From Mycobacterium barrassiae (lineage in GTDB: Bacteria; Actinomycetota; Actinomycetes; Mycobacteriales; Mycobacteriaceae): a DNA stretch of 64,000 nt. The notes beneath the pieces are model-generated. The model saw nothing but the letters and a program-made list of their open reading frames with translations. It made no database searches and was not told where the DNA came from. The position numbers and the translations under genes were made by a program. The stretch is taken from the NCBI RefSeq assembly GCF_025822765.1, contig NZ_JACKUK010000023.1:267535-331534 (forward strand), given 5' to 3'. Of this stretch, positions 25,729-55,703 are shown in pieces (the first letter of the stretch is position 1; each line of letters starts with the position of its first letter).

Positions 25729-25754
25729 TGACATTTTCCCGATGATCTGTAAAG
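25729..25754. promoter_or_regulatory. 26-bp regulon element, site 1
   Basis: TGACAT at 25729 and TGTAAAG at 25748-25754, 19-bp phase. Located immediately upstream of the minus-strand hypothetical gene (start 25718); there is no plus-strand gene downstream. Confidence 0.6.
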
Positions 25755-25774
25755 GATGAGTTTTCGGGCCGACC

Positions 25775-25799
25775 TGACGAATTCCCACAATTTGTAAAG
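25775..25799. promoter_or_regulatory. 26-bp regulon element, weaker second site
   Basis: TGACGA at 25775 and TGTAAAG at 25793-25799, phase 18 instead of 19. It lies 45 bp from site 1 in the same gap between the WS/DGAT stop and the hypothetical gene start, so this promoter may carry two operators. Confidence 0.4.
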
Positions 25800-25832
25800 G
25801 CCCAGTTAAAGCGTCAGCAGGTCAGTGCGATG

Positions 25833-27260
25833 TCAGCTCGCCACGGCCATCGGTAGGACGGCCCCCACCGCGGTCAACTCGCCGGGCAGTCCGGAGGCCT
25901 CCCGCATCTCGACGAACGCGGCGATCATCGCGTCGGTCGCCTCGTGCGGGTCGGCGAGGGTGCTGTCATCGGTCAGCACCGAGATCGCGAGCTGGTCAAC
26001 GTAGCTCCAGACGGTGACGTTCATCCCGCTGCCCGCGACCACGGGCCCCACCGAATAGATCTCCGTGACCATGCCGCCCTCGATGGACCCCCGATCGCGG
26101 GGGCCTGCCACATTCGAGACCGTCAGATTGAACACGCTCGCGGATTCCACCCGCCGGGCCTGGCGGCGGAAGATCGCGGGCGCCATCGCCGGCGGCAGGT
26201 AGGACATCCACGCGGGCAGCACCGAAGGCCCTAGCAGCTGGTGATTCTCCTTGGCGATGCCAGTGGACAACGCGGTCAGCCGCACCCGCTCCAGCGGATC
26301 GTCGATGTGCACGGGCAGTGACGGGGTCATATAGGTGAACTCGTTGCCCGCCAACCGTTCTCGTGAGGGATTGGTGCTCACCGGCACCCCTGCCAGCAGC
26401 GGCGAGTCGGCATGCCCGTCGTAGCGCAACTGCAGACGGCGCAGCGCGCCCGCGACCGTCGCCAGCACGACATCGTTCAACGTCACGCCCAGGTGCTTGC
26501 TGGTCTCCTTCACATCCGCCAACGCCAGCGGCGCCGTCGCGAACCGCCGCCCCGGTGTCACCACGTGGTTGAGGAAGCACGGCGGCGGCGCGAAGTTGCG
26601 GGCCAGTTCCGGGTGGGCCCCGCGCTCCTTGGCTCGCCGTCGGACCCGGGAGGCGCCCGCAGCGGTCTCGCTCACCAGCCGGGGCAGCTTGCGGATCAGG
26701 CCGACGTGATCGCGGCCCGCGGCGGCCAGCAGCCGCGCCCTGGTGCCGGGCATGCCCTCCAGCCGGGGCGGCACCGCGTGCGCGATGTCGGCCGACTCGA
26801 GCGCCTTCGCCATCTGATTGGCCGACGCGACCCCGTCGGCGAGAACGTGATGCACCTTGTGCACGATCGCGATCCGGTCGTCGGCCAGGCCCTCGACGAG
26901 ATACATCTCCCACAGCGGGCGGCTGCGGTCCAGCGGCGTACTGGCGATCTGACCGATCATGCCGTCGAGTTCACGCCTGCCGCCGGGGGCGGGCACACGC
27001 GCACGGCGCAGGTGGTAGTCGAGATCGATGTCGTCGTTCTCCACCCACATGGGATGGTGAAGCTTGAACGGGATGTCGACGAGCTGATAGCGCAGCGGCG
27101 TCAACGCCATCAGCCGCGGATAGGCGATACGCCGGAACATCTCGAAGCTGAAGTCGTCGACGCCCGAGACATCCAGGATCCCGATCTTCAGCGTGTGCAT
27201 GTGCACTTCGGGCGTTTCGCTGTACAGCATCAAGGCGTCGACGCCGTTGAGTCGTTTCAT
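25833..27260 (-). CDS. Wax ester synthase/diacylglycerol acyltransferase (WS/DGAT)
   Basis: 475 residues from ATG 27260. The acyl-transfer motif HHxxxDG is present as KVHHVLADGVAS (about residues 130-140); the N-terminus MKRLNGVDALMLYSE and the C-terminal SNVAGPRD region are family-typical. It transfers an acyl group from acyl-CoA to a diacylglycerol or long-chain alcohol to store lipid. Divergent from DUF427, with a 26-bp regulon element between. Confidence 0.93.
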   Translation of the reverse strand: MKRLNGVDALMLYSETPEVHMHTLKIGILDVSGVDDFSFEMFRRIAYPRLMALTPLRYQLVDIPFKLHHPMWVENDDIDLDYHLRRARVPAPGGRRELDGMIGQIASTPLDRSRPLWEMYLVEGLADDRIAIVHKVHHVLADGVASANQMAKALESADIAHAVPPRLEGMPGTRARLLAAAGRDHVGLIRKLPRLVSETAAGASRVRRRAKERGAHPELARNFAPPPCFLNHVVTPGRRFATAPLALADVKETSKHLGVTLNDVVLATVAGALRRLQLRYDGHADSPLLAGVPVSTNPSRERLAGNEFTYMTPSLPVHIDDPLERVRLTALSTGIAKENHQLLGPSVLPAWMSYLPPAMAPAIFRRQARRVESASVFNLTVSNVAGPRDRGSIEGGMVTEIYSVGPVVAGSGMNVTVWSYVDQLAISVLTDDSTLADPHEATDAMIAAFVEMREASGLPGELTAVGAVLPMAVAS

Positions 27261-27320
27261 GTCCCCCGCTTCCCCGCAGCTTCCCCACTCGGTGATGTCG
27301 TCATTCCTTCGGCAAAGAAA

Positions 27321-27346
27321 TGACACTTGTTCAAGACTTTGTGAAG
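27321..27346. promoter_or_regulatory. 26-bp regulon element, site 2
   Basis: TGACAC at 27321 and TGTGAAG at 27340-27346, 19-bp phase, between the divergent WS/DGAT and DUF427 genes. ATG 27355 follows after exactly 8 bases, as at sites 5 and 8. Confidence 0.6.
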
Positions 27347-27354
27347 CTGGGTTC

Positions 27355-28032
27355 ATGAGTCTCGTCACCGGGCGTGGTCCGCTGAGTACCCATCCTGCCG
27401 GATGGTTTACCCCGCCGCTGGCCGTAGGCAGCGTCTTCGTCGAACCTCATCCGCGACGGGTCCAGGCCTTGCGCGACGGTGTCGCGGTGATCGACACCGA
27501 GCGGGCGCTGTTGGTGCATCGACCTGACCGACCGCTGAGTTATGCATTCATTCCAGAGGACATCGGGGAGCTGCTCAGTGAGCCGGTCGCCGAGGCGCCG
27601 GGATACGTCCAGGTGCCGTGGGACGCGGTCGACACCTGGCTGGAGGAAGGCCGCCGCCTCGTTCACTACCCGCCGAATCCGTACCACCGCGTCGACTGCA
27701 GGCCGACCGATCGCGCACTGCGCGTCACACTCGGCGACGAGGTCCTGGTGGACACGTCGGACACAATGATCGTCTTCGAGACGGCGCTCGAACCCCGCCT
27801 CTACGTCGCGCCGTCGCTGGTGCGCACCGACCTGCTACAGCGCTCACCGACAACCAGCTACTGCAATTACAAGGGTTACGCGACCTACTGGTCGGCGGTA
27901 AACGGTGACGACGTCGTCGCCGATGTCGCCTGGAGTTACGAGGAACCCCTACCCGAAACCTTGCCCATCAAGGGCTATTTCAGCTTCGACCCCGAACGTG
28001 TCGAGGTGGTGGCGCAGCTGCCGCGAGCGTGA
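27355..28032 (+). CDS. DUF427 domain protein
   Basis: 225 residues from ATG 27355. Two DUF427-like segments appear: RRVQALRDGVAVIDTERALLVHR in the N-terminal half, and the better conserved TPTSYCNYKG-type region (SPTTSYCNYKGYATYWSA) with VAWSYEEPLPE in the C-terminal half. The family's role is not known. The start codon is 8 bases after a regulon element, so the mRNA may be leaderless. Confidence 0.85.
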   Translation: MSLVTGRGPLSTHPAGWFTPPLAVGSVFVEPHPRRVQALRDGVAVIDTERALLVHRPDRPLSYAFIPEDIGELLSEPVAEAPGYVQVPWDAVDTWLEEGRRLVHYPPNPYHRVDCRPTDRALRVTLGDEVLVDTSDTMIVFETALEPRLYVAPSLVRTDLLQRSPTTSYCNYKGYATYWSAVNGDDVVADVAWSYEEPLPETLPIKGYFSFDPERVEVVAQLPRA

Positions 28033-34636: not shown

Positions 34637-35565
34637 GAAGGCCGGAGATCGGTGTCTATCTGCCTCAGATGGGCTTCACCTACGACGAGGTCCTTCACCG
34701 CACACAGCGCTGCGAGCAGCTGGGCATCGACTCGGTCTGGCTCTACGACCATCTCTACGCGCCCGGCATGCCGGACTATCCGTCGATGGAGGCGTGGACC
34801 CTGGCCACGGCGCTGCTGAGCCGCACCGAACGCATTCGGATCGGACATATGGTGCTGTGCAACCAGTTCCGCCATCCCGCGGTGCTGGCCAAGATGGCGA
34901 CGACGCTGGACCAGATCTCTGGAGGCAGGCTTGCGCTCGGCATCGGCAGCGGCTCCATCGAGGACGAGCACTCCCGCCTCGGGCTGCCGTGGGGCACGTT
35001 CGCCGAGCGTTCCGAGCGTCTCGGCGAGACGCTGCAGATCCTGCATCAGGCGTTCGCCGACGAGGTGATCGACTTTGCCGGAAAGCATTTCACCGTCCGC
35101 GACATGCCGATCAAGCCATCGGCGGTGCAGCAGCCCCGACCACCGGTCGTCGTGGGCGGGGTCGGCGAGAAGTACACGCTACCGCTGGTGGCACGCTATG
35201 CCGACGTCTGGAATGTCCCCACCTATGCGCTCGGCGAGCTCGAACACAAGATCTCCGTGCTGCGGTCGATATGCGACGAGGTCGGCCGTGACCCGTCGAC
35301 CATCGTCATGTCGATCGAGGCGGTGATGGCGTTGGCGGCCGACGACGCGTCACTGCCCACGGTGCGACAGCTCGCCGAGAAGCGTTTCGGCATGCCGGCA
35401 TTCGGACTCCGGGAGGGCGGCCTGATCGGAACACCGCCGCAGATCGTCGACCGACTGAACCAATTGAAGGAACTGGGGTTCGGCCAGATCGTGTTGTTCA
35501 CCCACGACCGCGGCTCCGACGAGACGCTCGACCTGCTGGCGGCCGAGGTGATCGCGAAACTCTAA
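34633..35565 (+). CDS. LLM-class F420-dependent oxidoreductase
   Basis: 310 residues. Family features include EQLGIDSVWLYDHLYAPGMP, RIRIGHMVLCNQFRHPAVLAKM and LALGIGSGSIEDEH. Translationally coupled to the dehydratase by an ATGA overlap (34633-34636). The 3' end overlaps the convergent acyl-CoA dehydrogenase by 4 bp. Substrate unknown; the pairing suggests it acts on the same CoA- or acid-type intermediate. Confidence 0.87.
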   Translation: MRRPEIGVYLPQMGFTYDEVLHRTQRCEQLGIDSVWLYDHLYAPGMPDYPSMEAWTLATALLSRTERIRIGHMVLCNQFRHPAVLAKMATTLDQISGGRLALGIGSGSIEDEHSRLGLPWGTFAERSERLGETLQILHQAFADEVIDFAGKHFTVRDMPIKPSAVQQPRPPVVVGGVGEKYTLPLVARYADVWNVPTYALGELEHKISVLRSICDEVGRDPSTIVMSIEAVMALAADDASLPTVRQLAEKRFGMPAFGLREGGLIGTPPQIVDRLNQLKELGFGQIVLFTHDRGSDETLDLLAAEVIAKL

Positions 35566-36725
35566 GTGGTCTTCGCCACCGGCGCAGCATAGGCCGGGCG
35601 GCCGAGGCCCAGCACGTGTTGCGCGATCATGTTGCGGAACACCTCGAGGGTGCCGCCGTAGATGCCGGTGGGTCCGGCCAACCGGAAGATGTACTCGGCT
35701 CCCCCGTCGTCGGCGGCGCCCGAAGTCCCGACGGGCAGCGCTGATTCGGTCCCGAGGAGGTCCATCAGGTCCGGGGTCAGGTCACGCATGGTCTGTGCGA
35801 TCGCCACCCTGCCGAACATCCCCGGCGCGCTCATCGCCGCTTCCATCCGCGCGATGCTGCGCCCCAACCGGTATCGCGCCGCGTCATCGTGCGGTGCTTT
35901 CGCGGCCACCCCGTCGATGGCCTCGGCGAGCAGCAGCACGTGTTCGGTCATCGCCGCGATCTTGTCCAGGCCGTCGTCACCCCGATCGATCGTGCCGTGC
36001 TCGTCGTTGAGCGCTTCCCGCAGCACGGCCCAGCCGCCGTTGACCTCACCGATCCGGTACCTGTCGTCGACGCGCACATCGCTGTAGTACGTGATGTTGG
36101 TGCGGTCGCCGTCCACGGTGCGCAGCGGCTGAATCTCGACACCCGGCGAGTCCAGCGGCACGAGGAACATGGTGAGGCTCTGATGTTTGGGCGCGTCGGG
36201 GTCGGTGTTGGTGATCAGGAAGACGTATTGGGCGTTCTGCGCATTGGACGTGAACATCTTGGAGCCGTTGATGATCCATCCGTTCCCGTCGCGCACCGCC
36301 CGCGTCTTGCAGGTGGCGACGTCGGATCCGCCCTCGGGCTCCGTGTAACCCAGGCAGAGCCGGACCTGCCCCGACAACGCCCGCTCCATCACCTCAGCTT
36401 TTAATTCCTCTGATCCGAAGTCCCGCACGGCCCTGGCAACCATCGCCGTCGTGCCCCAGTGGAACCACGGTGTGTGGGCGCGGCCGATCTCGAGGTTCCA
36501 GATACGACGGCGTAGGCGCGAGAAACCGCCGTCGGCTTCGTCCTTGAAATCGCTTGCCAGATATCCGGCTTCGCCCAGCGCCAGGTGCACGCCTTCGTCG
36601 AAGTTCTCGCCTGTCTGCCGGTCCCGCTCGATGACCTCGTCGGTGACGATCTCCTTCAGAAAGCTGCGCAGGTCGTGCTGAAACGCCCGGTCCTCGTCCG
36701 GCAGTTCGACGTGTGAGAAATCCAC
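35562..36725 (-). CDS. Acyl-CoA dehydrogenase
   Basis: 387 residues from GTG 36725. FAD-binding TEPEGGSDVATCKT, the MFTSNAQNAQYVFLIT core segment, and C-terminal GIYGGTLEVFRNMIAQHVLG. The sequence style resembles mycobacterial FadE paralogs used on steroid side chains and branched acids. No partner subunit is adjacent, so a homomeric enzyme is assumed. Its promoter region holds a 26-bp regulon element shared with the divergent GAP-family gene. Confidence 0.9.
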   Translation of the reverse strand: MDFSHVELPDEDRAFQHDLRSFLKEIVTDEVIERDRQTGENFDEGVHLALGEAGYLASDFKDEADGGFSRLRRRIWNLEIGRAHTPWFHWGTTAMVARAVRDFGSEELKAEVMERALSGQVRLCLGYTEPEGGSDVATCKTRAVRDGNGWIINGSKMFTSNAQNAQYVFLITNTDPDAPKHQSLTMFLVPLDSPGVEIQPLRTVDGDRTNITYYSDVRVDDRYRIGEVNGGWAVLREALNDEHGTIDRGDDGLDKIAAMTEHVLLLAEAIDGVAAKAPHDDAARYRLGRSIARMEAAMSAPGMFGRVAIAQTMRDLTPDLMDLLGTESALPVGTSGAADDGGAEYIFRLAGPTGIYGGTLEVFRNMIAQHVLGLGRPAYAAPVAKTT

Positions 36726-36735: not shown

Positions 36736-36761
36736 TGACACTTTCTCGCCCATCTGTAAAG
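36736..36761. promoter_or_regulatory. 26-bp regulon element, site 3
   Basis: TGACAC at 36736 and TGTAAAG at 36755-36761, 19-bp phase, between the divergent acyl-CoA dehydrogenase (36725) and GAP-family (36794) genes. Confidence 0.65.
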
Positions 36762-36793
36762 TCATGCCGAGTCTGTCTGTAGAGTCTCGTCCG

Positions 36794-37463: not shown

Positions 37464-37943
37464 TTGGGCATCGTCACCACAAGCTCGGAAACGGCATTCA
37501 GCCAACCGCCGGATGCGATCTACGATTTCGTGACGAATCCCGCCAACTGGACCAAGACGTACCCCGGCGGTCCAGATATCCGCAACCTGCCGGACCGGTT
37601 ACCGCTGCAGGTCGGCGACACCTGGGACGAGGCCCATCCCGATCCCGCCAAGGATCGCGTCTTCACCTGGCAGCTGGCGATGGCGGTACGGCCAAGCCTG
37701 TTCGTGTTCAGCTCCGTCGGGCGCCTGGGACACGACAGTCAGGGCGAGGGCGGGCTCGAGGGCCGCATGACGATCGAGTACCACTTCACGGCGCCGGGTG
37801 ACGGCGTAACGCTCTTCCGCCGGACCATGACCATCGAGGCCTACCGGCACGCACCGCTCACCGACGGCTTCTTCCGGATGGTCAATCCGGCCCACATCGA
37901 CGCCTATCACGCCGCGGTGGCGCGGGAACTCACTGCGACGTAG
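37464..37943 (+). CDS. SRPBCC (START/Bet v1-like) family protein
   Basis: 159 residues from TTG 37464, chosen because AAGGAG (37451-37456) sits 7 nt upstream and the domain begins directly: SSETAFSQPPDAIYDFVTNPANWTK. A hydrophobic-ligand-binding fold; function unknown. It follows the GAP-family gene by 16 bp and its end overlaps the convergent esterase by 14 bp. Confidence 0.78.
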   Translation: MGIVTTSSETAFSQPPDAIYDFVTNPANWTKTYPGGPDIRNLPDRLPLQVGDTWDEAHPDPAKDRVFTWQLAMAVRPSLFVFSSVGRLGHDSQGEGGLEGRMTIEYHFTAPGDGVTLFRRTMTIEAYRHAPLTDGFFRMVNPAHIDAYHAAVARELTAT

Positions 37944-42801: not shown

Positions 42802-42802
42802 C

Positions 42803-44748: not shown

Positions 44749-44775
44749 CCAGTTGACAGTCGCACCCTGCGAGCG

Positions 44776-44801
44776 TGACACTTGTGCCGTGATTTGTAAA
44801 G
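44776..44801. promoter_or_regulatory. 26-bp regulon element, site 4
   Basis: TGACAC at 44776 and TGTAAAG at 44795-44801, 19-bp phase, between the divergent NIPSNAP-led operon (44748) and the SMP-30 gene. It therefore controls the main catabolic operon. Confidence 0.68.
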
Positions 44802-45634
44802 GTGCCGACACGCTGACGACACTGGCCGAGGGTTTCTGCTTCGGCGAGGGCCCGCGGTGGTTCGAGGGATTGCTGTGGTTCTCGGACATGCTGGGCGAGG
44901 CGGTGCACACCGTCAACCTGCTCGGCGACCTGACCACGCTGCCGCTTCCCGGTCACCGCCCGTCCGGCCTCGGGTTCCGACCCGACGGGACGTTGCTGAT
45001 CGTGTCCGGCGCACACCGGCGGCTGCTGCGCTACGACGGCTACACCGTCGAACCGTTCGCCGATCTTTCCGGCCACGTGTCTGCGGACCTCGGCGACATG
45101 GTCGTCGACGCCGCCGGCCGCGCATACGTCGGAGTCCAGGCTCGTGAGGGTGGCGTCATCGCCCGTGTCGATCCCGACGGGTCGGTGACGATCGTCGCCG
45201 CGAACCTCGACTTCCCGAACGGGATGGTGATCACGCCGGACCACGCCACGCTGATCGTCGCCGAGTCGACGGGCAGGCGATTGACCGCGTTCACCATCGG
45301 CACCGACGGGTCGCTCAGCGACCGGCGGAGCTTCGCCGACGGGCTCGACGGGCCGCCCGACGGCATCTGCCTCGACGCCGAAGGCGGCGTATGGGTGGCG
45401 ATGACCCTGGCCAATCAGTTCGAGCGGATCGTCGAGGGCGGTGGCAAAGCCGATGTCACCGACCGGATCGAGATGGGTGACCGCATCGCGATCGCCTGCG
45501 CGCTGGGCGGGCCGGAACGGCGCACCCTGTTCCTGCTGACCAGTACGGACGCGTATCCGGAGCGGCTGATCGGAACGACGGGGTCACGCCTGGACGCGAT
45601 GACCGTCGCCGTCCCGGGAGCCGGGCTGCCGTGA
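44789..45634 (+). CDS. SMP-30/gluconolactonase-like family protein
   Basis: 281 residues from GTG 44789. Six-bladed propeller features: EGFCFGEGPRWFEG (metal Glu), GRAYVGVQ, DFPNGMVITPDHATLIVAES and DGICLDAEGGVWVA. Family members hydrolyse lactones with a divalent metal, which fits a BVMO product. The start is uncertain: the position used as ATG in co-regulated genes (8 bases after the regulon element) reads ACG at 44810 here. Followed by a thioesterase in a GTGA overlap. Confidence 0.82.
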   Translation: MICKGADTLTTLAEGFCFGEGPRWFEGLLWFSDMLGEAVHTVNLLGDLTTLPLPGHRPSGLGFRPDGTLLIVSGAHRRLLRYDGYTVEPFADLSGHVSADLGDMVVDAAGRAYVGVQAREGGVIARVDPDGSVTIVAANLDFPNGMVITPDHATLIVAESTGRRLTAFTIGTDGSLSDRRSFADGLDGPPDGICLDAEGGVWVAMTLANQFERIVEGGGKADVTDRIEMGDRIAIACALGGPERRTLFLLTSTDAYPERLIGTTGSRLDAMTVAVPGAGLP

Positions 45635-46446
45635 GCGATTCCTACTACGAGTTGATCGACGGCGACGACCCACTGGGTGAGAAGTTTGCCGCGACCGATC
45701 TGGTGCGCAGTACCTGGTCGGCCGAGATCCAGCACGGTGCGCCACCGTCGGCGCTGCTGGTGCGCGCGCTGGAGCGGTGTGAGGCCCGGGACGACACCCG
45801 CCTGAGCCGCGTGATGATCGACCTTCTCGGGGCTGTGCCCGCCGAGGGAGATCTGTGGGTACGATCGCGAATCGAGCGTTCCGGCAAGCAGATCGAGCTC
45901 GTCAGCGCCGAGATGCTGGCACCTGGGCGTGACGGTGGGCCACGCGCGGTGGCGCGGGCCAGCGGCTGGCGGATGAAGACCATGGACACCGCTGCGATCG
46001 TCCACACGTCGGCACCGCCGCTGCGGCCTCTTGCCGAGGCGCGCAGCCGCGATATGAAGAAGGACTGGGACCGCAACTATGTGCACAGCCTCGACTGGCG
46101 GTGGTTGACGGAGCCGATGAGCGACGGGCCCGGTGAATCCTGGATTCGCCCGGAGGTCGACCTCGTCAAAGGCGAGACCATGACCGCCCTTGAGCGGCTG
46201 TTCGCGGTCGCCGACGATGCCAACGGCATCGGCACCAAGCTCGACATCAGGCGGTGGACGTTCATGAACACCGACCTCGTCGTGCACGTGCACCGTCTTC
46301 CGGAGGGCGAGTGGATCGGAATACGCGCCGAGACGAACTACGGGCCCGACGGGATCGGTACGACGATCGGCACCCTGTTCGACGAGTCGGGTCCGGTCGG
46401 CGCGATTCAGGAGTCGGTGCTGGTCCGTCCGATGCCGGGCCGCTGA
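45631..46446 (+). CDS. Acyl-CoA thioesterase-like (double hot-dog) protein
   Basis: 271 residues from GTG 45631, overlapping the SMP-30 stop. Similar to TesB-like thioesterase family proteins, with a substrate-entry half (FAATDLVRSTWSAEIQHG) and a C-terminal hot-dog ending in GPVGAIQESVLVRP. Probably hydrolyses a CoA thioester; specificity unknown. Convergent with the protease gene, 4 bp between stops. Confidence 0.7.
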   Translation: MSDSYYELIDGDDPLGEKFAATDLVRSTWSAEIQHGAPPSALLVRALERCEARDDTRLSRVMIDLLGAVPAEGDLWVRSRIERSGKQIELVSAEMLAPGRDGGPRAVARASGWRMKTMDTAAIVHTSAPPLRPLAEARSRDMKKDWDRNYVHSLDWRWLTEPMSDGPGESWIRPEVDLVKGETMTALERLFAVADDANGIGTKLDIRRWTFMNTDLVVHVHRLPEGEWIGIRAETNYGPDGIGTTIGTLFDESGPVGAIQESVLVRPMPGR

Positions 46447-47269: not shown

Positions 47270-47461
47270 TCAGTCGGCGAGGCGCAACGCCGAGACGGGA
47301 CACTGCGTCACGGCCTGCTGCATGCGATCGCGATCCGCTTCGGGCCGTTCGCTGTCGTGGATCACGACGATGCCGTCGTCGGACACCTCGAACACGTCTT
47401 CGGCGATCGATTCGCAGATGCCGTGGCCGGTGCACCTGTCGAGGTCCACTTCCACCCTCAT
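47270..47461 (-). CDS. Ferredoxin, [3Fe-4S] P450-partner type
   Basis: 63 residues from ATG 47461, chosen because AGGAG lies 6 nt upstream. Cluster ligands: Cys in RCTGHGIC (C-x2-H-x2-C variant) and the final Cys in QCPVSAL. His in place of the second Cys is typical of mycobacterial P450-redox ferredoxins. It lies 8 bp after the P450 stop, so it is the electron donor for that P450 and perhaps for the one at 42803. Confidence 0.92.
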   Translation of the reverse strand: MRVEVDLDRCTGHGICESIAEDVFEVSDDGIVVIHDSERPEADRDRMQQAVTQCPVSALRLAD

Positions 47462-47469
47462 GAGCACTC

Positions 47470-48723
47470 CTATCGAACGCAGGCAGGTAGGCGTTTGACA
47501 CCGTGGACGAAGTTGCTGTACAGCAGGTCAGGCTCGCCGAACTCGATGGTGGTCAAGCGAGTCAGCAACTCGCGGAACAAGTTTCGCAGCTCTGTCTTGG
47601 CCAGTTGGTTACCCAGGCAGAAGTGTGGACCCCCGCCGCCGAAGCCGAGATGTGGATTGGGTGAACGCGACAGGTCGAAGACACCCGGATCGGCGAAGGC
47701 GGCCTCATCACGGTTGGCCGAGCAGTAGAACAGGCCCACTTTCTCGCCTGCCTGCACGGGCTGACCGTTGATCTCGGTGTGCTGGGTCGCGAAGCGGGCG
47801 AACTGCAGCACCGGCGAGGACCACCGCACGAATTCCTCGACGGCGGTCCCGATGCGGTTCTCGAAATCGTCCATCAGCCAGTCGCGCTGGGCGGGATTGG
47901 CAACCAGAGCCATCATCGCGTGCGTGGTGGCCTGTTTGGTCGTGTCGTTGCCGGCCGACGCCAACAAGATCAGGAAGGCACCGATCTCCTCGTCGGTCAG
48001 CCGGTGCCCGTCGACCTCGGCGTTGACGATGGCCGTCATCAGGTCGTCGCCGGGGTTCTTGCGCCGGAACTGCGCCAACTCGATCCCCGTGTTGGAGAGC
48101 AGCGTGATCTGCGCGATCGGGTCCTCGGCCCGCTCCTCGGGCGTGGCGTACTCGTCGTCGCTCATGCCGAACAGCTTCTCGGCGGCGTAGGCCACCGCCG
48201 GCTGGTCTGCGGTCGGCACGCCGAGCATGTCCATGATGGTCAGCATCGGCAGTCGCGCCGAGCAGGCGGCCACGAAATCGACGTCGCCCGCGCCGACGAG
48301 ATCGTTGACGATCGCGACGGCGTTGCGCTGGATCTGCTCCTCGATCTGGCGGACGTTGCGCGGCGTGAACGCCGAACTGATGAGCCTCCGGTACACGGTG
48401 TGCTGGGGCGGATCCATGCTGAGGAAGAACGACGCGAACCGCTGGATCTCAGCGGGCATCGGGTTCAGCGCGATGCCTTGTGCCGAGGTGAACAGATCGG
48501 GATGCTGGCTGACGAACGCGATGTCGGCGCGGCGCGTCAACGCCCAGAAGCCGGGTTCTTCCATCGGGAACAGCGAGTCGAACGGGCGGTGCCAGGTAAG
48601 ACCGTCACCCGCCCGCAGCCGGGCGAAAACCTCGTCACGTTCGTCGAACGGCCGACTCCAGAAGTCGTGCGAGGTGATGTCGAACTGGCTGTATTCGCGT
48701 ACCTGCACGGGTGGGGCTGTCAC
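47470..48723 (-). CDS. Cytochrome P450, CYP125/CYP142-like
   Basis: 417 residues from GTG 48723. Heme loop FGGGGPHFCLGNQLAK, I-helix ASAGNDTTKQA, K-helix EEFVRW. The GGGPHFCLG style and the SAFTPRNVRQIEEQI segment resemble P450s of steroid side-chain and terpenoid oxidation, but the substrate cannot be fixed. Operon with the ferredoxin. The start codon lies 10 bp from regulon site 5. Confidence 0.92.
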   Translation of the reverse strand: MTAPPVQVREYSQFDITSHDFWSRPFDERDEVFARLRAGDGLTWHRPFDSLFPMEEPGFWALTRRADIAFVSQHPDLFTSAQGIALNPMPAEIQRFASFFLSMDPPQHTVYRRLISSAFTPRNVRQIEEQIQRNAVAIVNDLVGAGDVDFVAACSARLPMLTIMDMLGVPTADQPAVAYAAEKLFGMSDDEYATPEERAEDPIAQITLLSNTGIELAQFRRKNPGDDLMTAIVNAEVDGHRLTDEEIGAFLILLASAGNDTTKQATTHAMMALVANPAQRDWLMDDFENRIGTAVEEFVRWSSPVLQFARFATQHTEINGQPVQAGEKVGLFYCSANRDEAAFADPGVFDLSRSPNPHLGFGGGGPHFCLGNQLAKTELRNLFRELLTRLTTIEFGEPDLLYSNFVHGVKRLPACVR

Positions 48724-48733: not shown

Positions 48734-48759
48734 TGACACTTCCTCAAAAATTTGTAAAG
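48734..48759. promoter_or_regulatory. 26-bp regulon element, site 5
   Basis: TGACAC at 48734 and TGTAAAG at 48753-48759, 19-bp phase, between the divergent P450 (48723) and TetR (48768) genes. ATG 48768 follows after 8 bases. It lies directly upstream of a regulator gene, as expected for autoregulation. Confidence 0.7.
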
Positions 48760-48767: not shown

Positions 48768-49316
48768 ATGGACGAACCGTGGGTCGAGACCGACAGCTCG
48801 ACGCGACAGCGAATTCTCGCCGCCACCGCGGAAGTTCTCGGCCGCAACGGGATGACGAAACTCAGCCTGTCGGAGGTCGCCTCGCAGGCCGGCGTATCTC
48901 GGCCCACGCTCTATCGGTGGTTCGATTCGAAAAAGGATCTGCTCGAAGCGTTCGTGGTGTGGGAGCGGCAGTTCTACGAACGCGCGGTGTCGGATGCGAC
49001 CGCCGATCTTCCGGCGGAAGAGAAGCTCGATGCCGCGCTTCGGGTGATCGTGGACTATCAGCAGTCCTATCCGGGGCTGCGCATGATCGACATCGAGCCT
49101 GCGCAGGTCCTGCGGCGGCTGTCACGGGTCATTCCGCTCATGCGGCAGCGACTCGAGCGCCTCGCACAGGGTCCCGATGCCGCCCTGGCGGTGTCGACGG
49201 CTGTACGCGTGGCGATTTCGCACTACGTGGTGCGCAGCGACGACGACGGCGACTTCCTCGATCAGCTTCGGCATGCCGCCCGTGTCAAGCACCACCCTCC
49301 CGGGGGTACGCAGTGA
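48768..49316 (+). CDS. TetR-family regulator, paralog of 55107-55655; candidate regulon repressor
   Basis: 182 residues from ATG 48768, giving exactly the length of its paralog (ATG 48762 is also possible). HTH region LSLSEVASQAGVSRPTLYRWF then DSKKDLLEAF is nearly identical to the second TetR, so they should recognise similar DNA. The C-terminus HYVVRSDDDGDFLDQLRHAA is also shared. It is transcribed from regulon site 5 and coupled to the following phosphotransferase gene by a GTGA overlap. Confidence 0.9.
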   Translation: MDEPWVETDSSTRQRILAATAEVLGRNGMTKLSLSEVASQAGVSRPTLYRWFDSKKDLLEAFVVWERQFYERAVSDATADLPAEEKLDAALRVIVDYQQSYPGLRMIDIEPAQVLRRLSRVIPLMRQRLERLAQGPDAALAVSTAVRVAISHYVVRSDDDGDFLDQLRHAARVKHHPPGGTQ

Positions 49317-50362
49317 CAATCCCGTCTACCGTCGACGAGCTCACCCCCGAATGGTTCACCGACGCGTTGAACGTCGGCGTGGACGCGGTGGAGATCCTGG
49401 ACGCACATTCCGGCACCACGGGTCGTGCCCGGATCGGGTTGACCGGGTCGTCGCCGGACGTTCCGGAGACCGTGTTCGTCAAGCTGCAACCGTTCGCCGA
49501 AGAGCAGCGCACTTTCCTGCGTCAGATCGGTCTTGGCGTGGCCGAAGCGAGGCTCTACGCCGAAGTGGGTAGGGACCTTCCTGTGCGGGCGCCGACGGTG
49601 TTTCATTCCGACTACGACGAATTCGACGGGTCGTTCGTGATGGTGCTCGAGGATCTCACCGCCGCGGGTTGTCGCTTCCCCACCCCGAGCGATGACGACA
49701 TCGTCGACGTCGCGGCATCGGCGATGGATGAGATGGCGCTGCTGCACGCCGCGTTTCAGGGCCGCGACCTGGCGTGGCTGCGCACGGCCAAGGGGATGAA
49801 ACGCAAACCGGCAGATTCGGAAACCGCTTCCCGCCGTGCGCAGTTCATCGTCTCCGCGCTCGAGCAGTTCGCAGATGACATGCCGGCGGTGTTCCGTCGC
49901 CTCGGTGACCTCTACGCCTCGCGGTCACTCGATATCGTGGCACTGTTCGCCGAGGGCGAGCGCACCCTGATCCATGGCGACACCCACAGCGGCAATCTGT
50001 TCGTCGACGGAAGTCGTACCGGTTTCTACGACTGGGCGGTCGCCGGTCGGGGTCCAGGAGTGCGCGATGTCGGCTATTTCCTGTGCAACTCGCTGCCGAT
50101 CGAAACGCGGCGCGCCGAGGAGGAGGCACTACTGACGCGGTATCGGTCTGCGCTGGCGCGCAACGGCGTCGGACTCGACGCAGCCACAGCGCATGAGCAG
50201 TACCGGCTGTTCGCGGTGTACTCATGGATTGCCGCCGCGTCCACCGCGGCGATGGGATCGCAGTGGCAACCGATCGACGTATCCCTTGCGGCCATGGCAA
50301 GCACCACACAGGCCATCGAGGATCTCGACTCTGTCGGCCTGCTCGAGGAGCGGCTCAGCTGA
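49313..50362 (+). CDS. APH-like (choline/aminoglycoside kinase fold) phosphotransferase
   Basis: 349 residues from GTG 49313. The kinase-fold catalytic loop is LIHGDTHSGNLF, and the metal-binding Asp is in FYDWAVAGRGPG; N-lobe Lys in VFVKLQPF. It phosphorylates an unknown small molecule; antibiotic resistance should not be assumed, because this branch is common in mycobacterial lipid and xenobiotic clusters. Coupled to TetR upstream. Similar to the gene at 53958. Confidence 0.82.
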   Translation: MTIPSTVDELTPEWFTDALNVGVDAVEILDAHSGTTGRARIGLTGSSPDVPETVFVKLQPFAEEQRTFLRQIGLGVAEARLYAEVGRDLPVRAPTVFHSDYDEFDGSFVMVLEDLTAAGCRFPTPSDDDIVDVAASAMDEMALLHAAFQGRDLAWLRTAKGMKRKPADSETASRRAQFIVSALEQFADDMPAVFRRLGDLYASRSLDIVALFAEGERTLIHGDTHSGNLFVDGSRTGFYDWAVAGRGPGVRDVGYFLCNSLPIETRRAEEEALLTRYRSALARNGVGLDAATAHEQYRLFAVYSWIAAASTAAMGSQWQPIDVSLAAMASTTQAIEDLDSVGLLEERLS

Positions 50363-50370: not shown

Positions 50371-51447
50371 CTAGTGCGCCGACTGCACGGCCTTCATCCG
50401 TTCCTCGCTGGGCAGCACCGGGCCGTCGTCGAGTTGCTCGGTGACCCCGAGATCATCAAGGCCCATCTTCGTGAACATCGAAATGCCGTAGGCATTCAGC
50501 ATGAAACGCTGGTCGTCGGTGACTCCGTCGTCGAACAGCCGTGAGCCGATCAGATTGATCACCGCGAGCTTGAAGGCCGCCAGCGCCCGGTACCACTCGC
50601 GATTGACGACGGTGACTCCACCGGCTGCGGCGTAGTGCGCGAGGAGACCGTCAATCGTCATCGCCGCCTCATGGCTGGGAATCCCGACCGGCATGCGCCA
50701 CAACAACTCCAGGTATCCGATGTCGGTCAGTGGATCGCCGACGGTGGTCAACTCCCAGTCGAACACCGCGCTCACCTCATCGCGGACGAAGGCGAAGTTG
50801 CCCGGTTTGGCATCGCCGTGGACCAGAGTGACAGCCGCCGATGACGCGGGTTGAGTGGCCTTGAGTTCTTGCTGCAGTCGCTCGAGAGCCGGCAGCGTAC
50901 CGCGCTTGACCCGTTGCATCTCCGAAGTCCAGTGCTCGATTTCGCGGTCCAAGTGGCTGGGGCCGTCGTCGAGGGATTCCAGGTTCACGGCGACGATGTC
51001 GACGGTGTGGATCGCGGCGAGCTGCTCGGCCATGCTTTCGCACATCCGCGCGACTCCGGCGGCACCGACCTCCGGTCCTTGTGGTGCGTCCATCTCGTAG
51101 ACGGTGCCCGGCAACCGTTCCATGACGAAGAACGGCCGGCCCAAGACATCACCGGAATCCTCGAGCCACAGCGCACGCGGCACCCGCACATTCGAGCCTT
51201 CCAACGCGCGCAGCACGGTGAATTGCTTTGCGAGGTCATAGGGTTCGAGGAGTGCCGGTGATGGCGGCCGTAGCCGAAGCACGACGTCGCGGCTCTCTCC
51301 GCCCGCGACGATCGTCAACACCATCATCTCGGCCGAATGACCGAACTCCACACGATCGAGTCCCTCGAGCCGTAGGTCGTCGACATCTTCAAGCTGGGTA
51401 CGCAGCCATCCGGCAAGCTGATCACGCACGTCGTCGGCGTAGCTCAT
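50371..51447 (-). CDS. APH-like phosphotransferase (ACAD10/11-kinase type)
   Basis: 358 residues from ATG 51447. Catalytic loop LVHGDAKPGNFAF and metal Asp in AVFDWELTTVGDPLTDIGY, the form found in ACAD10/11-like kinases that phosphorylate hydroxyacyl-CoA. This suggests a hydroxy-acid or hydroxyacyl-CoA substrate. Overlaps the upstream lipocalin-like gene by 4 bp. Confidence 0.85.
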   Translation of the reverse strand: MSYADDVRDQLAGWLRTQLEDVDDLRLEGLDRVEFGHSAEMMVLTIVAGGESRDVVLRLRPPSPALLEPYDLAKQFTVLRALEGSNVRVPRALWLEDSGDVLGRPFFVMERLPGTVYEMDAPQGPEVGAAGVARMCESMAEQLAAIHTVDIVAVNLESLDDGPSHLDREIEHWTSEMQRVKRGTLPALERLQQELKATQPASSAAVTLVHGDAKPGNFAFVRDEVSAVFDWELTTVGDPLTDIGYLELLWRMPVGIPSHEAAMTIDGLLAHYAAAGGVTVVNREWYRALAAFKLAVINLIGSRLFDDGVTDDQRFMLNAYGISMFTKMGLDDLGVTEQLDDGPVLPSEERMKAVQSAH

Positions 51448-52577
51448 CGCTTGTCTGCTCTCCGTACTGCCCCACGGTCGACCGTTTTCCTGCCCTGTTT
51501 GAACTTCGACATGTCCATCGGAGACCAATTCGGGTAGCGAGGGTATGCATCTCCCCCCATCAGGATTTCGAAGATGCCCCACCCCATGCGGCCGTCGAAG
51601 TCGAACCGCATCAACTGATCGACGGCCATCGCCTTGTCTTCGTTCTCGACCAGCTCGTCGCGATCATTGCTGTCCCAGCGGAAATGGATGAAGTACGCAC
51701 CCCCACCGAGGTCTTCATAGGTGCACTTCGACATCGGTAGCCCGTAGTAGGCGTTGACGTGTTGGTGCGGCGACTCAGCGGTGACGCGATACTGCGCCCC
51801 GTCCTCGTCCGTGAATACCAGCACTGCCCGGGCAGGCCGCTTACGGTCACCATCGAATTCGACGTCGTGCTCGATCTTCACGAAACGCTTCGACAGGGTG
51901 CCGTCGTTGTGGGTGATGCCGCCGTCGACATAGGTCACTGTGCCGTCGGCGGTCTCGAAGATCCAGGCTTCGATGGCACGATCCTCGAATCCCGCGTCGA
52001 GCCACAGCCAGAAGTCGATCTCGTCAGCCACGCGCACACCGAAGGTTCGGTCCCGACCGCCGTGAAATCCGTCGACGGAGATCCGTTCACCCTCGACCTC
52101 GACCCAACCGGTCCACTTCCCCGGCTCCTTCATGTGGTACATATCCGCGATGAGACGGCCGTTCTTGCCAGTTACCTTGAGCGGCAGGAGCTCCCACATC
52201 GGGGCGGTCGGTTCGTAGTGCAACTCCCAGGCGATCCCCGAGTTGTTGGGCTCGACCTCGAGCTTCCATTTCTTCAGCGGTTCGACGCATGTCCACCGCA
52301 TCGGGCCTGCGCCGACCTCGGCGCGTCCGCCACCGTCGACCGGTCGGCCGGCCAGCAGGTCGTAGTGGCGCCCGTCCGCGAATGTCACCTTGACGTAGCC
52401 GAGGCCGGACTTGGTGTTGGGATTGTTGCCGTATCCAGATGCCAGGAGCAGATCCCCATCGGGCGAGGCGGCGAAGAAGTAGCACCGGTCCGACCAGGTC
52501 GAGTCTGGGTGATGCACCTCGTCGAATGGCCGAGGCAGTTGGTGAGTGAACGACTCGTCTGCGGCGGAATAGCCCAT
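51444..52577 (-). CDS. Lipocalin/CrtC-like domain protein of unknown function
   Basis: 377 residues from ATG 52577. A beta-rich protein with repeated Trp/Gly segments (DGFHGGRDRTFGVR, DEIDFWLWLDAGF), similar in style to hydroxyneurosporene synthase (CrtC)/AttH-like lipocalin-fold proteins. No catalytic motif is identified. It is coupled to the kinase downstream (4-bp overlap) and has regulon site 6 upstream. It could bind or hydrate a hydrophobic substrate. Confidence 0.6.
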   Translation of the reverse strand: MGYSAADESFTHQLPRPFDEVHHPDSTWSDRCYFFAASPDGDLLLASGYGNNPNTKSGLGYVKVTFADGRHYDLLAGRPVDGGGRAEVGAGPMRWTCVEPLKKWKLEVEPNNSGIAWELHYEPTAPMWELLPLKVTGKNGRLIADMYHMKEPGKWTGWVEVEGERISVDGFHGGRDRTFGVRVADEIDFWLWLDAGFEDRAIEAWIFETADGTVTYVDGGITHNDGTLSKRFVKIEHDVEFDGDRKRPARAVLVFTDEDGAQYRVTAESPHQHVNAYYGLPMSKCTYEDLGGGAYFIHFRWDSNDRDELVENEDKAMAVDQLMRFDFDGRMGWGIFEILMGGDAYPRYPNWSPMDMSKFKQGRKTVDRGAVRRADKR

Positions 52578-52628: not shown

Positions 52629-52654
52629 TGACATTATTGGCGGAATCTGTAAAG
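52629..52654. promoter_or_regulatory. 26-bp regulon element, site 6
   Basis: TGACAT at 52629 and TGTAAAG at 52648-52654, 19-bp phase. It lies 52 bp upstream of the minus-strand lipocalin-like gene (52577); no plus-strand gene starts nearby, so here the element must serve the minus strand. Confidence 0.65.
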
Positions 52655-52720: not shown

Positions 52721-53902
52721 CTACGTCGAACGTTTCGTGCGCTGACGGTCCGCCAGTTCGGCGAGCACCTCGGCGGTGTGTTGCCCCAGTTCCGGTGCGG
52801 GCGAACGCGGTTGCCACGGCGTGCCGTGGAAGTCGGCGGGCGAGGCGACCATCGGGATGCCTCCCTCGCCGTCGGGCACATTGACGATGCCGCCCGCGGC
52901 GTGGAACTGTTCGTCGCCGAGCACGTCTTCGAGCGAGTTGATGGGTGACCAGAACAATTCCGGTTCGCCCGCGAAGATTTCGGCCCACTCGGCGAGCGTC
53001 TTGGTCGCGAAGATCTCGTCGAGCTCGGCGATCAACTCCCGCGCGTTGATCGCCCGGTTGAGCGGTGTGTCGAAGCGGGGGTCGGTCAGCCAGCCGTTCC
53101 GCCCGACGGCGCGACACAGTGGTGGCCAGTGCCGGCCGGCCTGCAGTCCCACGATCCAGAACCGGCGGCCGTCCCCGGCGGCGTAGTTGTTCATACACGG
53201 ATTGCCCATCGTCTCGCGTTGGCCGATCGCGATGGGGTTGCCCGTCATCAGGAATGTGTTGAGATCGAAGCTCACGGTGTAGACGCCCTGCCGGTACAGC
53301 GACGTGCTCACCATCTGCCCCCGGCCGGTGCGCCCGCGTGACACCAGTGCCGCGCAGACCGCACCGGCCAGGGTCATGCCCGCGGTGTGGTCACCCATTC
53401 CGCCGCGCTGAAACGGCGGGGTGTCGCCGGGCCGCGTCAACAGATGCGCCAGACCCGATCTGGCCCAGTAGGCGGCGACGTCGAATGCCGCGCGGTCGGC
53501 GTCGGGGCCCGTTTCGCCGTACCCGGTGATGAGGCCGTAGACCAGGGCCGGATTGTCCGTCGCGACCGACTCGAAGTCCAGACCCAACCGCGCGAGCGCA
53601 CCAGGTCGCACGTTCGTGAGGAAAACGTCGGCGTCGCTTAGCAATTCACGCGCCGTCGCCCTCCCCTCGTCGGTCGTCACGTCGAGCACGATGCTGCGCT
53701 TGCCGCGATTGTCCATGTCGAAGGGCGGGCTGGAGCCGTCCTCAACGCCCAGCATCCGGCCGAACATCCGCGCCGGATCGCCCGTCGGCGGTTCGATCTT
53801 GACGACATCGGCGCCCCAGTCCGCCAGAATTCCACCGGCCGCCGGACCCGCGACCCACACACCGAGTTCGACGACTCTGATGCCTTCCAACGGTCCGGCC
53901 AT
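52721..53902 (-). CDS. CaiB/BaiF family III CoA-transferase
   Basis: 393 residues from ATG 53902. N-terminal LEGIRVVELGVWVAGPAAGGILADWGADVVKIE is highly typical. DMDNRGKRSIVLD and the catalytic Asp in RGGMGDHTAGM are present. It transfers CoA between carboxylic acids and so activates or releases the pathway acid. Divergent from the kinase gene at 53958, with regulon site 7 between. Confidence 0.93.
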   Translation of the reverse strand: MAGPLEGIRVVELGVWVAGPAAGGILADWGADVVKIEPPTGDPARMFGRMLGVEDGSSPPFDMDNRGKRSIVLDVTTDEGRATARELLSDADVFLTNVRPGALARLGLDFESVATDNPALVYGLITGYGETGPDADRAAFDVAAYWARSGLAHLLTRPGDTPPFQRGGMGDHTAGMTLAGAVCAALVSRGRTGRGQMVSTSLYRQGVYTVSFDLNTFLMTGNPIAIGQRETMGNPCMNNYAAGDGRRFWIVGLQAGRHWPPLCRAVGRNGWLTDPRFDTPLNRAINARELIAELDEIFATKTLAEWAEIFAGEPELFWSPINSLEDVLGDEQFHAAGGIVNVPDGEGGIPMVASPADFHGTPWQPRSPAPELGQHTAEVLAELADRQRTKRST

Positions 53903-53924
53903 CGGGGAACCCTTTCGAGTGGCT

Positions 53925-53950
53925 TTACAAATCATAGCAAATTTGTAAAC
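53925..53950. promoter_or_regulatory. 26-bp regulon element, site 7 (most symmetrical)
   Basis: TTACAAATC at 53925 and TGTAAAC at 53944-53950, 19-bp phase, forming TTTACAAAT-N7-ATTTGTAAA. It is the most symmetrical copy and shows that the element is an inverted repeat. It lies between the divergent CoA-transferase (53902) and kinase (53958) genes; GTG 53958 follows after 7 bases. Confidence 0.7.
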
Positions 53951-53957
53951 TGGCGAG

Positions 53958-55061
53958 GTGAATCGAGTCGCGCCCGCCGTCGGCCTCGCCGCGCATATCG
54001 GACGCGGGGTACAACGTATCGTCACCGACGCCGCCATCGGCCGGGTTCGATCCCTCCCCCGCACCATCGACGAACTCGACGCAACATACCTGTCCCAGGT
54101 GATGGGCCGAACGGTCACGTCGATGTCGGTCATCAGCGGCGACGCGGGCACGTCGTCGCGCGCCAGGCTCGCGCTCACCGGCGACGGCGTCCCGGAATCG
54201 GTGTTCGTCAAGATGTCCGCCGAAACCGTCGCCACCCGCCTGATGGGCGAGATGGGCCGGCTCGCCGCAACCGAGACCCGGTTCTACCGCGAGTTGTCCC
54301 CGCAACTCGATGGGCTCCCCGCCTCCTACGGATCTGTATTCGACCCAGTGACCGGGCGCTTCGTCCTGGTGCTGGAGGATCTCGCCGCATACGACTGCGA
54401 ATTCCCCGACACGCTTCATCCGCTCAGTACCGAGCGGGCCGGCCTGATCGTGGAACTCCTGGCCCGGCTGCACGGGAAGTTCTGGGGCCGGATCCCCGAC
54501 TGGCTGTACTCCGCCTCCGCGGACAGTGCCTCGCTGTTGACGGGTCCGCTGCTCAAGACCTCGTCGCGCCGCATCGCCGAACGCACCGACATCCCCGTCG
54601 AACGGGGGCGGTTCATCGAGAAGAACTATCGCGCGGTCGCGCGGCTGATCGACACGCCACCGCACACGGTCATGCACGGCGACGCCCACCCGGGCAACGT
54701 CTACTTCCGCGACGGCGCGGCGGGCCTGTTGGACTGGCAGGCCGTGCGGCGCGGCCACCCGAGCCGCGAACTGGCATACACCCTGGTCACGAGCATGACG
54801 ACCGAGGACCGACAGGCCAATGAGCGCGACATCCTCGACGGGTATCGCCGCGCGCTGGCGGCCGCGGGCGGGCCGGACCTGGATCGCGACGACCTGTGGA
54901 CGCGCTACCGGCAGGGCGCGCTGTACGCCTACGTCGCCGCCCTGATCACCGCCGGAATGGGGGGCATGCAGGACGAAGGGATCGCGTTAGAAGGTTTGCG
55001 GCGCGCCGTCGCGGCGCTGGAGGACCTCGACACGGTCGCCGTCCTCAGGAAAGCCCTGTGA
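53958..55061 (+). CDS. APH-like phosphotransferase
   Basis: 367 residues from GTG 53958. Catalytic loop VMHGDAHPGNVYF and metal Asp in LLDWQAVRRGHPS; N-lobe Lys in VFVKMSAE. Substrate unknown. Its sequence parallels the kinase at 49313, and it is followed by a TetR gene paralogous to the one preceding that kinase, so the two regulator-kinase modules are related by duplication. Confidence 0.83.
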   Translation: MNRVAPAVGLAAHIGRGVQRIVTDAAIGRVRSLPRTIDELDATYLSQVMGRTVTSMSVISGDAGTSSRARLALTGDGVPESVFVKMSAETVATRLMGEMGRLAATETRFYRELSPQLDGLPASYGSVFDPVTGRFVLVLEDLAAYDCEFPDTLHPLSTERAGLIVELLARLHGKFWGRIPDWLYSASADSASLLTGPLLKTSSRRIAERTDIPVERGRFIEKNYRAVARLIDTPPHTVMHGDAHPGNVYFRDGAAGLLDWQAVRRGHPSRELAYTLVTSMTTEDRQANERDILDGYRRALAAAGGPDLDRDDLWTRYRQGALYAYVAALITAGMGGMQDEGIALEGLRRAVAALEDLDTVAVLRKAL

Positions 55062-55106
55062 CTGACGCACTACCATCATGGAACCCAAGCGATTGAGGCC
55101 ACTGAC

Positions 55107-55655
55107 GTGAACGAACCGCTGCGCGATGCAACCGGAGCCGTCGAGGACACCTCGACTCGACACCGGATCCTCGTCGCGACCGCCGAGGTGCTCGCCCGCA
55201 GCGGACAGACCAAGCTCAGCCTCTCGGAGGTCGCGCTGCAGGCCGGGGTCTCGCGGCCCACGCTGTACCGCTGGTTCGCCTCCAAGCAGGAACTGCTCGA
55301 TGCGTTCGGGGTGTACGAGCGCGAGATGTTCGACAACGGCATCAGCAAGGCCACGGCCGGGCTGCGGGGCACGGAGAAACTCGATGCCGCGCTGCGGTTC
55401 ATCGTCGAGTACCAGCACTCGTACTCGGGCGTGCGGCTCGTCGACATCGAACCCGAGGTCGTGATCGGGCAGCTGGGGCGAATCCTGCCGATCATGCGTG
55501 CCCGCCTGGAGAAGCTGTTGAGCGGTCCCAACGGAGGAGTCAAGGCGGCCACCGCAATTCGCGTCGCGATATCGCACTACATCGTGCGCAGCGATGACGA
55601 CGACCAGTTCTTGGCGCAACTCCGACACGCGGCGGGCATCAAACAACCAGGCTGA
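55107..55655 (+). CDS. TetR-family regulator, paralog of 48768-49316
   Basis: 182 residues from ATG 55107. HTH LSLSEVALQAGVSRPTLYRWF then ASKQELLDAF. Equal in length and similar throughout to the other TetR of this region. It lies 45 bp after the kinase gene and upstream of the ALDH gene, whose promoter has regulon site 8. Confidence 0.9.
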   Translation: MNEPLRDATGAVEDTSTRHRILVATAEVLARSGQTKLSLSEVALQAGVSRPTLYRWFASKQELLDAFGVYEREMFDNGISKATAGLRGTEKLDAALRFIVEYQHSYSGVRLVDIEPEVVIGQLGRILPIMRARLEKLLSGPNGGVKAATAIRVAISHYIVRSDDDDQFLAQLRHAAGIKQPG

Positions 55656-55677
55656 GCCCCCGTCTGCGCCGAAGTAG

Positions 55678-55703
55678 TGACACTTCCGTCAAAGTTTGTA
55701 ATG
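55678..55703. promoter_or_regulatory. 26-bp regulon element, site 8
   Basis: TGACAC at 55678 and TGTAATG at 55697-55703, 19-bp phase, upstream of the aldehyde dehydrogenase; ATG 55712 follows after 8 bases. It lies just after the second TetR gene. Confidence 0.6.

Follow-up and report, generated by a model that had tools for sequence, protein, structure and literature searches.

A conserved predicted regulon of a mycobacterial TetR subfamily with a putative operator merged into its promoters

The locus and its repeated element

We analysed a stretch of 64,000 nucleotides from Mycobacterium barrassiae (assembly GCF_025822765.1, contig NZ_JACKUK010000023.1, positions 267,535 to 331,534 of the forward strand), hereafter the window, in which a short inverted repeat recurs beside the genes of a putative catabolic cluster and beside two paralogous TetR genes. 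A preliminary description, made from the letters alone, had listed nine copies of this element between positions 25729 and 55703, read them as the operator of one regulon and named the two TetR proteins as candidate regulators. A string check of the window found all nine copies in place. Seven of them (25729, 36736, 44776, 48734, 52629, 53925 and 55678) carry the exact core TKACA-N14-TGTMA, and an eighth, at 27321, has one core mismatch (TGTGA); among four relatives its counterpart has the exact core in three (L182, L183 and L184) and another mismatch in the fourth. The ninth, at 25775..25800, reads TGACG with an N13 spacer, off register by one, and is the sole off-register copy of an inverted repeat whose N14 spacing otherwise holds as proposed. 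This spacer rules it out as a full site, and it is possibly an auxiliary copy or a half-operator. By eye, two near relatives have a similar copy, 45-46 bp from the main site and once as TAACG, and it is missing in the four other relatives compared.

Site 1 (25729..25754) lies before a minus-strand gene (25185..25718) for a protein of 177 amino acids without a Pfam match, taken here as a regulon member; the GTG start codon at 25718 is at offset 34 from the start of the site, and two relatives (L182 and L183) have the orthologous site at the same offset. A WS/DGAT acyltransferase gene follows on the minus strand (25833..27260, start inferred), and site 2 (27321..27346) separates it from a plus-strand DUF427 gene (27355..28032), whose ATG is at offset 34. 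Site 3 (36736..36761) is located between an acyl-CoA dehydrogenase gene on the minus strand (35562..36725, GTG at offset 34) and a gene for an SfLAP membrane protein on the plus strand (36764..37447, start inferred); orthologous sites were found in L182-L185. Site 4 (44776..44801) stands between a probable minus-strand operon (37930..44757) and a plus-strand gene pair (44807..46446) encoding an SMP-30/gluconolactonase, with an uncertain start, and a thioesterase. The operon encodes a NIPSNAP-like protein (an assignment below the cut-off), a P450, a zinc-dependent alcohol dehydrogenase (ADH), an HpcH aldolase, a short-chain dehydrogenase/reductase (SDR), a flavin monooxygenase and an alpha/beta hydrolase.

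Site 5 (48734..48759) lies between minus-strand genes for a CYP268-family P450 and a ferredoxin (47270..48723) and the plus-strand gene of the first candidate regulator, TetR2 (48768..49316), behind which an APH/EcKL kinase is encoded (49313..50362, plus strand). Site 6 (52629..52654) is upstream of two minus-strand genes (50371..52577) for an Rv3169-family protein and, second, a kinase with similarity to the kinase domain of ACAD11. Site 7 (53925..53950), the most symmetrical copy, is found between a type III CoA-transferase gene on the minus strand (52721..53902, start inferred) and a plus-strand gene for an EcKL-type kinase (53958..55061), directly followed by the gene of the second candidate regulator, TetR3 (55119..55655, plus strand; the frame is open from 55107 and the start was set by alignment). 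Site 8 (55678..55703) precedes a plus-strand aldehyde dehydrogenase (ALDH) gene (55712..57196).

The seven exact cores of the window compare with a mean of 0.057 and a largest count of two in 300 first-order Markov simulations. When one mismatch was allowed, 10 matches were found against 2.2 expected, and none of 100 shuffles reached 10; two of these matches (32114 and 40568) were left out of the site count. In the 5.9 Mb genome the exact core occurs at 13 places, against one for a reversed-pattern control. Seven are in the window, one (C23:415048) lies beside a remote SnoaL-like gene and adds it to the regulon, two belong to the locus of a third TetR paralogue on contig C25, and the other three (C16:107778, C33:808 and C44:111710) are taken as background. 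The asymmetric 26-mer at up to one mismatch has nine genomic places, seven of them in the window; at up to three mismatches it is at background (27 places against 26 for the control), the matches after the first nine being no more than background. In 887 kb of loci, chosen for a TetR gene or the motif and so not a random sample, the N14 spacer was found 146 times, and no alternative length between 6 and 23 exceeded five occurrences. Forty-four of 136 sites fall inside predicted genes, against 86% expected, a weak test with open reading frames extended to the first start.

The one-mismatch match at 32114 ends 17 bp upstream of another, unrelated TetR gene at 32154. It overlaps an inverted repeat at 32063-32154 (ATTACACAT ... 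ATGTGTAAT), in which 24 bases separate TTACA from TGTAA, against 14 in the main element. Read by eye, this is perhaps the own operator of that TetR gene, of which a partial orthologue only was found in the four loci searched. Clusters of two to three exact sites, 70-130 bp apart, were observed in some relatives (L152 6229/6299, L155 8229/8301 and L137 14133/14259/14339), perhaps for cooperative binding.

Association of the element with one TetR family

We searched 148 Mycobacterium genomes for a model of the motif (E<=0.01) and for the TetR family (E<=1e-25). The motif was found in 115 genomes and the TetR family in 123; no genome has the motif without the TetR family, eight have the TetR family without the motif and 25 have neither (Fisher p 1e-21, a value that ignores the kinship of the genomes; the motif-model search used strict filters). 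Seven of the 25 genomes without the TetR family were searched again under relaxed filters (E<=0.5), and none of them gave a motif match. Exact cores were also counted in hand-picked genomes, 10 of the 123 with the TetR family and 10 of the 25 without it. The former have a mean of 11.7 cores (5-18) and the latter of 3.1 (0-7; Mann-Whitney p 0.0004), with 2.8 (1-5) and 3.6 (0-7), respectively, for the reversed pattern. Across the order, the TetR family is present in 29 of 249 genomes, all in the genus of the window (1 of 68 genera). For 58 of the 68 top-listed motif sites a TetR gene is listed on the same contig, and for 10 none is listed; 55 of these 58 sites are within 15 kb of the listed TetR gene, 18 of them within 100 bp. 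The motif is thus found only alongside one TetR family in the genomes compared, which argues that the element is a TetR operator.

Both candidate regulators have a TetR_N helix-turn-helix (55.7 bits in TetR2 and 47 in TetR3, against a cut-off of 24). TetR2 has exactly two full-length relatives in the genome, TetR3 (63%) and the third paralogue on contig C25 (44%), the remaining matches being partial and weak (18 matches at E<=1e-5). An AlphaFold2 model of TetR2 (mean predicted local distance difference test score 70.4, predicted template modelling score 0.54, the C-terminal half weaker) matches many PDB entries named as TetR regulators, KstR included, with a best E of 1.1e-4, and with moderate confidence predicts an all-helical TetR fold with a ligand domain.

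TetR genes of two of the three types were regularly found to carry the element themselves. All 20 distinct TetR2-type and all 8 third-type proteins have an exact site no more than 160 bp upstream, and for the third paralogue on C25 the distance is 32 bp. The types are labels by best BLAST match; nine of the TetR2-type proteins (L044-L052) came from a protein search alone, and most others from stretches chosen with motif and TetR listings in view. The TetR3 gene follows the EcKL kinase gene in the window and in several relatives, so placed behind a kinase promoter that has the site in all 16 orthologues.

The loci of the third paralogue also differ from the others in the half-site. At these loci (8 loci, 18 sites), 29 of 36 half-sites have a T directly after TKACA, at position +5, compared with 20 of 236 at the remaining loci (118 sites). 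This position may have changed from A/C to T after duplication of the repressor, insulating the regulon of the third paralogue; together with the shared-base operator-promoter module and the GCT switch described below, we hold this proposal evenly balanced between right and wrong. In a tree of 61 TetR sequences two served as outgroups on very long branches, and neither its root nor the order of the paralogues is trusted.

The element could be read by some other regulator (AraC, MarR, GntR or another TetR), with the TetR genes as mere members of the regulon. TetR2 and the third paralogue, with the site in their own promoters, would fit targets as well as regulators, and the search did not extend to regulators of the same distribution. 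Nevertheless, we consider this very unlikely: the motif-bearing genomes nest inside those with the TetR subfamily, the half-site differs between TetR types, and genomes with a single paralogue (G073, G016 and G060) keep several sites. The earlier proposal that TetR paralogues are the regulators is therefore retained from genome nesting and from the sites upstream of TetR genes, and is refined by a third paralogue with a changed half-site.

Site placement, promoter geometry and the proposed mode of control

Sites were counted upstream of orthologous genes in 45 of 49 loci, duplicates (L049, L050, L051 and L142) being dropped; orthologues below 45% identity or not aligned near the start were left out, and the rows of TetR2 and TetR3 (29 and 13 of 43), which mix paralogues, were not used. 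The first genes of most transcription units keep the site: ALDH in 15 of 15 orthologues, EcKL kinase in 16/16, SMP-30 in 27/28, CYP268 in 16/17, the NIPSNAP-like gene in 21/25, CoA-transferase in 15/22, DUF427 in 5/8 and the Rv3169-family gene in 3/4. Internal genes seldom or never have a site of their own (flavin monooxygenase 0/12, HpcH aldolase 0/15, ADH 0/20, P450 0/23, the kinase behind TetR2 0/3, the kinase behind the Rv3169-family gene 0/4, thioesterase 1/28 and ferredoxin 3/19). In four further loci, picked after the genome survey had shown sites or genomes there, the site is present at acyl-CoA dehydrogenase (4/4) and at DUF427 (4/4, of which one has a mismatched core); seven of these eight sites have the start codon at offset 34, and one has it at 35. 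Regulon membership as first proposed thus stands for most first genes; WS/DGAT, with the site at one of two orthologues, is a possible member, and SfLAP, which like the 177-amino-acid protein has no orthologue above the filter, a tentative one.

The start codons follow the sites at a fixed distance. The preliminary description had noted start codons closely behind four sites, and they lie at offset 34 at 27355, 48768 and 55712 and at 33 at 53958; it has to be corrected in that 25729, 36736 and 48734 also have a minus-strand GTG at offset 34 (25718, 36725 and 48723). To both sides of the element, in 272 outward views taken from 136 of the 146 core matches (the rest had duplicate context or were too near the end of a locus), a start codon (ATG or GTG) leading into an open frame stands at offset 34 in 62 views and at any other offset in at most 22. 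GCT is found at offsets 25-27 in 52 of these 62 views, against 64 of the other 210, and in 58 of the 62 the -10 box has A as its second base and T as its sixth. With the sigma-A consensus as reference, the half-site fits a -35 box (xTKACA) at 17 bp from a -10 box (xAxGCT), and the start codon falls at the expected first base of the RNA. The element spans 32 bp rather than 26 once the -10 triplets are counted in. At site 5 this geometry fits both directions, with the ATG of TetR2 and the GTG of CYP268 45 bp apart. The start-codon spacing, the sole argument in this case, is consistent with the leaderless transcripts proposed earlier.

Such geometry also suits a reading of the element as a promoter signal only, that is, two overlapping divergent promoters for the main or an alternative sigma factor without a dedicated repressor: the half-sites fit -35 boxes, the spacer is 17, xAxGCT is at -10 and the start codon at offset 34. 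The ALDH sites speak against it. There the -10 triplet is present on the gene side in 14 of 15 sites and on the other side in none of 15, and the upstream gene is TetR3 on the same strand (12 of 12 loci checked, of 15); yet all 15 sites keep both half-sites, which are therefore maintained even with one apparent promoter. The divergent CYP268/TetR2 sites have the triplet in 15/15 and 14/15, respectively. In addition, none of the 25 genomes that lack the TetR family gave a match to the motif model, and a housekeeping promoter should occur at more than the roughly ten places seen in 5.9 Mb. On the strength of the ALDH sites we regard a pure promoter or alternative sigma-factor signal as highly unlikely. 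Because the ALDH sites keep both half-sites with a gene-side triplet alone, the operator is separable from the promoter, as expected of the operator overlapping promoters that had been suggested.

Taken together, the element is very probably the operator of the TetR subfamily, serving one catabolic regulon and the repressors' own genes and fused to their promoters. TetR2, TetR3 and the third paralogue would bind the repeated element and control both sets of genes. Each half-site (TTTACA or xTGACA) would act as the -35 box of a promoter that fires outward over the opposite half-site, with the -10 box (xAxGCT) 17 bp on and overlapping that opposite half-site, and many of the mRNAs would start with the start codon or close to it. 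When bound, the TetR protein would close one direction or both together, repressing rather than activating, and a ligand derived from the pathway would release it. Chances appear equal for and against a more specific version, in which every half-site read by the repressor doubles as a -35 box, N14 is set by the 17-bp promoter spacer, gain or loss of a single GCT triplet adds or removes a direction and the +5 shift insulates the third paralogue.

Several observations weigh against this interpretation. Eight of the 123 TetR-bearing genomes gave no motif-model match, and laxer filters (E<=0.5) rescued only two, G138 near the TetR gene and G078 elsewhere; in stretches of seven of the eight (G070 was left out) an exact core lies near the TetR gene in L119, L120 and L125 and none was found near it in L121-L124. 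The site of the third paralogue reaches only E 0.25 with the motif model. An exact site is directly upstream of only 4 of 33 TetR3-type proteins, and first genes without it include acyl-CoA dehydrogenase 35562 (2 of 2 orthologues), DUF427 (3/8) and CoA-transferase (7/22). Among the 58 top-listed sites, one is 19.7 kb and two are megabases from the listed TetR gene. Sites 44776 and 52629 have no usable start codon at offset 34, and the -10 box is without the first T of TANNNT. Moreover, all genomes compared for the motif are of one genus, so that their counts are interdependent, and many loci were selected for a TetR gene or the motif. Even so, enrichment, genome nesting, the sites before TetR genes and their conservation at first genes support the inverted-repeat operator of one regulon as first described, and the scan of related genomes places motif-bearing genomes within TetR-bearing ones. 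We conclude that this is a real and conserved regulon of a mycobacterial TetR subfamily, with its predicted operator merged into promoters.

The predicted pathway and comparison with known regulators

The regulon includes the CYP268-family P450 with its ferredoxin, a second P450, the flavin monooxygenase, SDR, ADH and HpcH aldolase, together with a lactonase, a thioesterase, the CoA-transferase, kinases of the APH and EcKL families and acyl-CoA and aldehyde dehydrogenases. CYP268A2 acts on terpenoid-like substrates. The CYP268 P450 of the window matches this enzyme of M. marinum (PDB 6bld) over its full length with 422 bits; no account of the regulation of CYP268A2 was found among the literature matches listed. 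For the kinase at 50371, the ACAD11 kinase domain is the second-best match (E 5.6e-29), after 9o56, an entry named only as aminoglycoside phosphotransferase. Phosphorylation by ACAD10/11 is followed by an elimination. According to passages of two papers, these kinases phosphorylate 4-hydroxyacyl-CoAs (PMC12440821, PMC11342911). The gene content suggests breakdown of a hydrophobic substrate, probably an isoprenoid or methyl-branched lipid, and the TetR ligand would then be an intermediate of the pathway.

The whole genome has 70 stretches matching P450 PF00067, some genes giving more than one, which is a large complement. Elsewhere in the window, a 26-mer (TGACACCTCCGGAGGCATTTGAGAAG) occurs at 1033 and 1157, 124 bp apart; further copies sit at the extreme termini of contigs C14, C28 and C29, as would those of a multicopy element that interrupts the assembly.

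No description of the motif or the regulon was found in the open-access papers searched, figures and supplements lying outside the search; the motif does not occur in the passages of PMC6593523, PMC4482099, PMC11667970, PMC5340868, PMC5895659, PMC10636190, PMC7810876, PMC13254585 and PMC9655578, in which logos are in figures. Our analysis links a catabolic cluster of environmental mycobacteria with a regulator family, a binding motif and a set of targets, and a TetR subfamily for which no description was found thereby acquires a predicted regulon. It also suggests that bacteria break down hydroxylated lipids by a route that depends on kinases, and offers a putative natural example of a repressor that was duplicated while its operator changed at one position. 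In laboratory mycobacteria, the merged operator-promoter could find use as a small promoter regulated in both directions.

KstR and KstR2 resemble the proteins studied here as mycobacterial TetR repressors of catabolic genes, and their palindromes, as generally described, differ from this element. The NCBIfam equivalog model of KstR, NF033703, with a cut-off of 280 bits, gives 29.1 bits for TetR2, 25.7 for TetR3 and 35.2 for the third paralogue; by curated cut-offs none of the three is KstR, MftR or FasR. The earlier statement that the element is unlike those of KstR and KstR2 agrees with these scores as far as KstR is concerned; no model of KstR2 is among the matches listed at E<=1e-5.

Two other known regulons have likenesses to this one. 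In the passages available, Rv3167c of M. tuberculosis is an autoregulated TetR repressor with a palindrome in its own promoter that controls Rv3168 and Rv3169 (PMC5340868), and the regulon described here has an Rv3169-family gene with a kinase. Motif X, attributed to Rv0767c by computational prediction, is a mycobacterial palindrome found next to TetR genes and to genes for P450 and for alcohol and aldehyde dehydrogenases; its regulon comprises 14 operons, of which phytosterol induced 12 by more than 3-fold, and its P450, ALDH and SDR targets resemble ours (passages of PMC6593523). Both palindromes were set apart from our element through the corresponding loci of the M. barrassiae genome, placed by gene order, and not by comparison of published letters. 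The TetR gene beside the best Rv3169-family gene of the genome (L181:8042-8656, contig C11), which from its neighbours we infer to be the Rv3167c orthologue, encodes a protein of another kind with another recognition region; none of the 18 matches to TetR2 is on C11, and no exact TKACA-N14-TGTMA was found in the 12-kb stretch around that gene. As far as this genome shows, Rv3167c is thus not the regulator family. At the presumed cyp51 locus, the TetR-aldA intergenic region shows GGACA-NN-TGTCC palindromes by eye, unlike our element, and the TetR of this locus, on contig C42, is not among the 18 matches (E<=1e-5) either, which speaks against motif X and Rv0767c. That the element belongs to the regulon of KstR, KstR2, Rv0767c or Rv3167c is, on these grounds, extremely improbable.

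Three Rv3169-family genes of the genome exceed the cut-off (C11:97816-98871, C25:313655-314743 and window 51444-52577). Each is near a TetR gene, from two TetR subfamilies, and a kinase gene is near at C25 and in the window; a neighbour of 377 amino acids at C11 was taken for a kinase.

The half-site centres of the element are about 20 bp apart, a distance that one dimer may not span. In passages on QacR (PMC4482099) and DarR (PMC10636190), operators of TetR regulators are bound by two dimers; the DarR operator, ATACT-N4-AGTAT, differs from the element described here.

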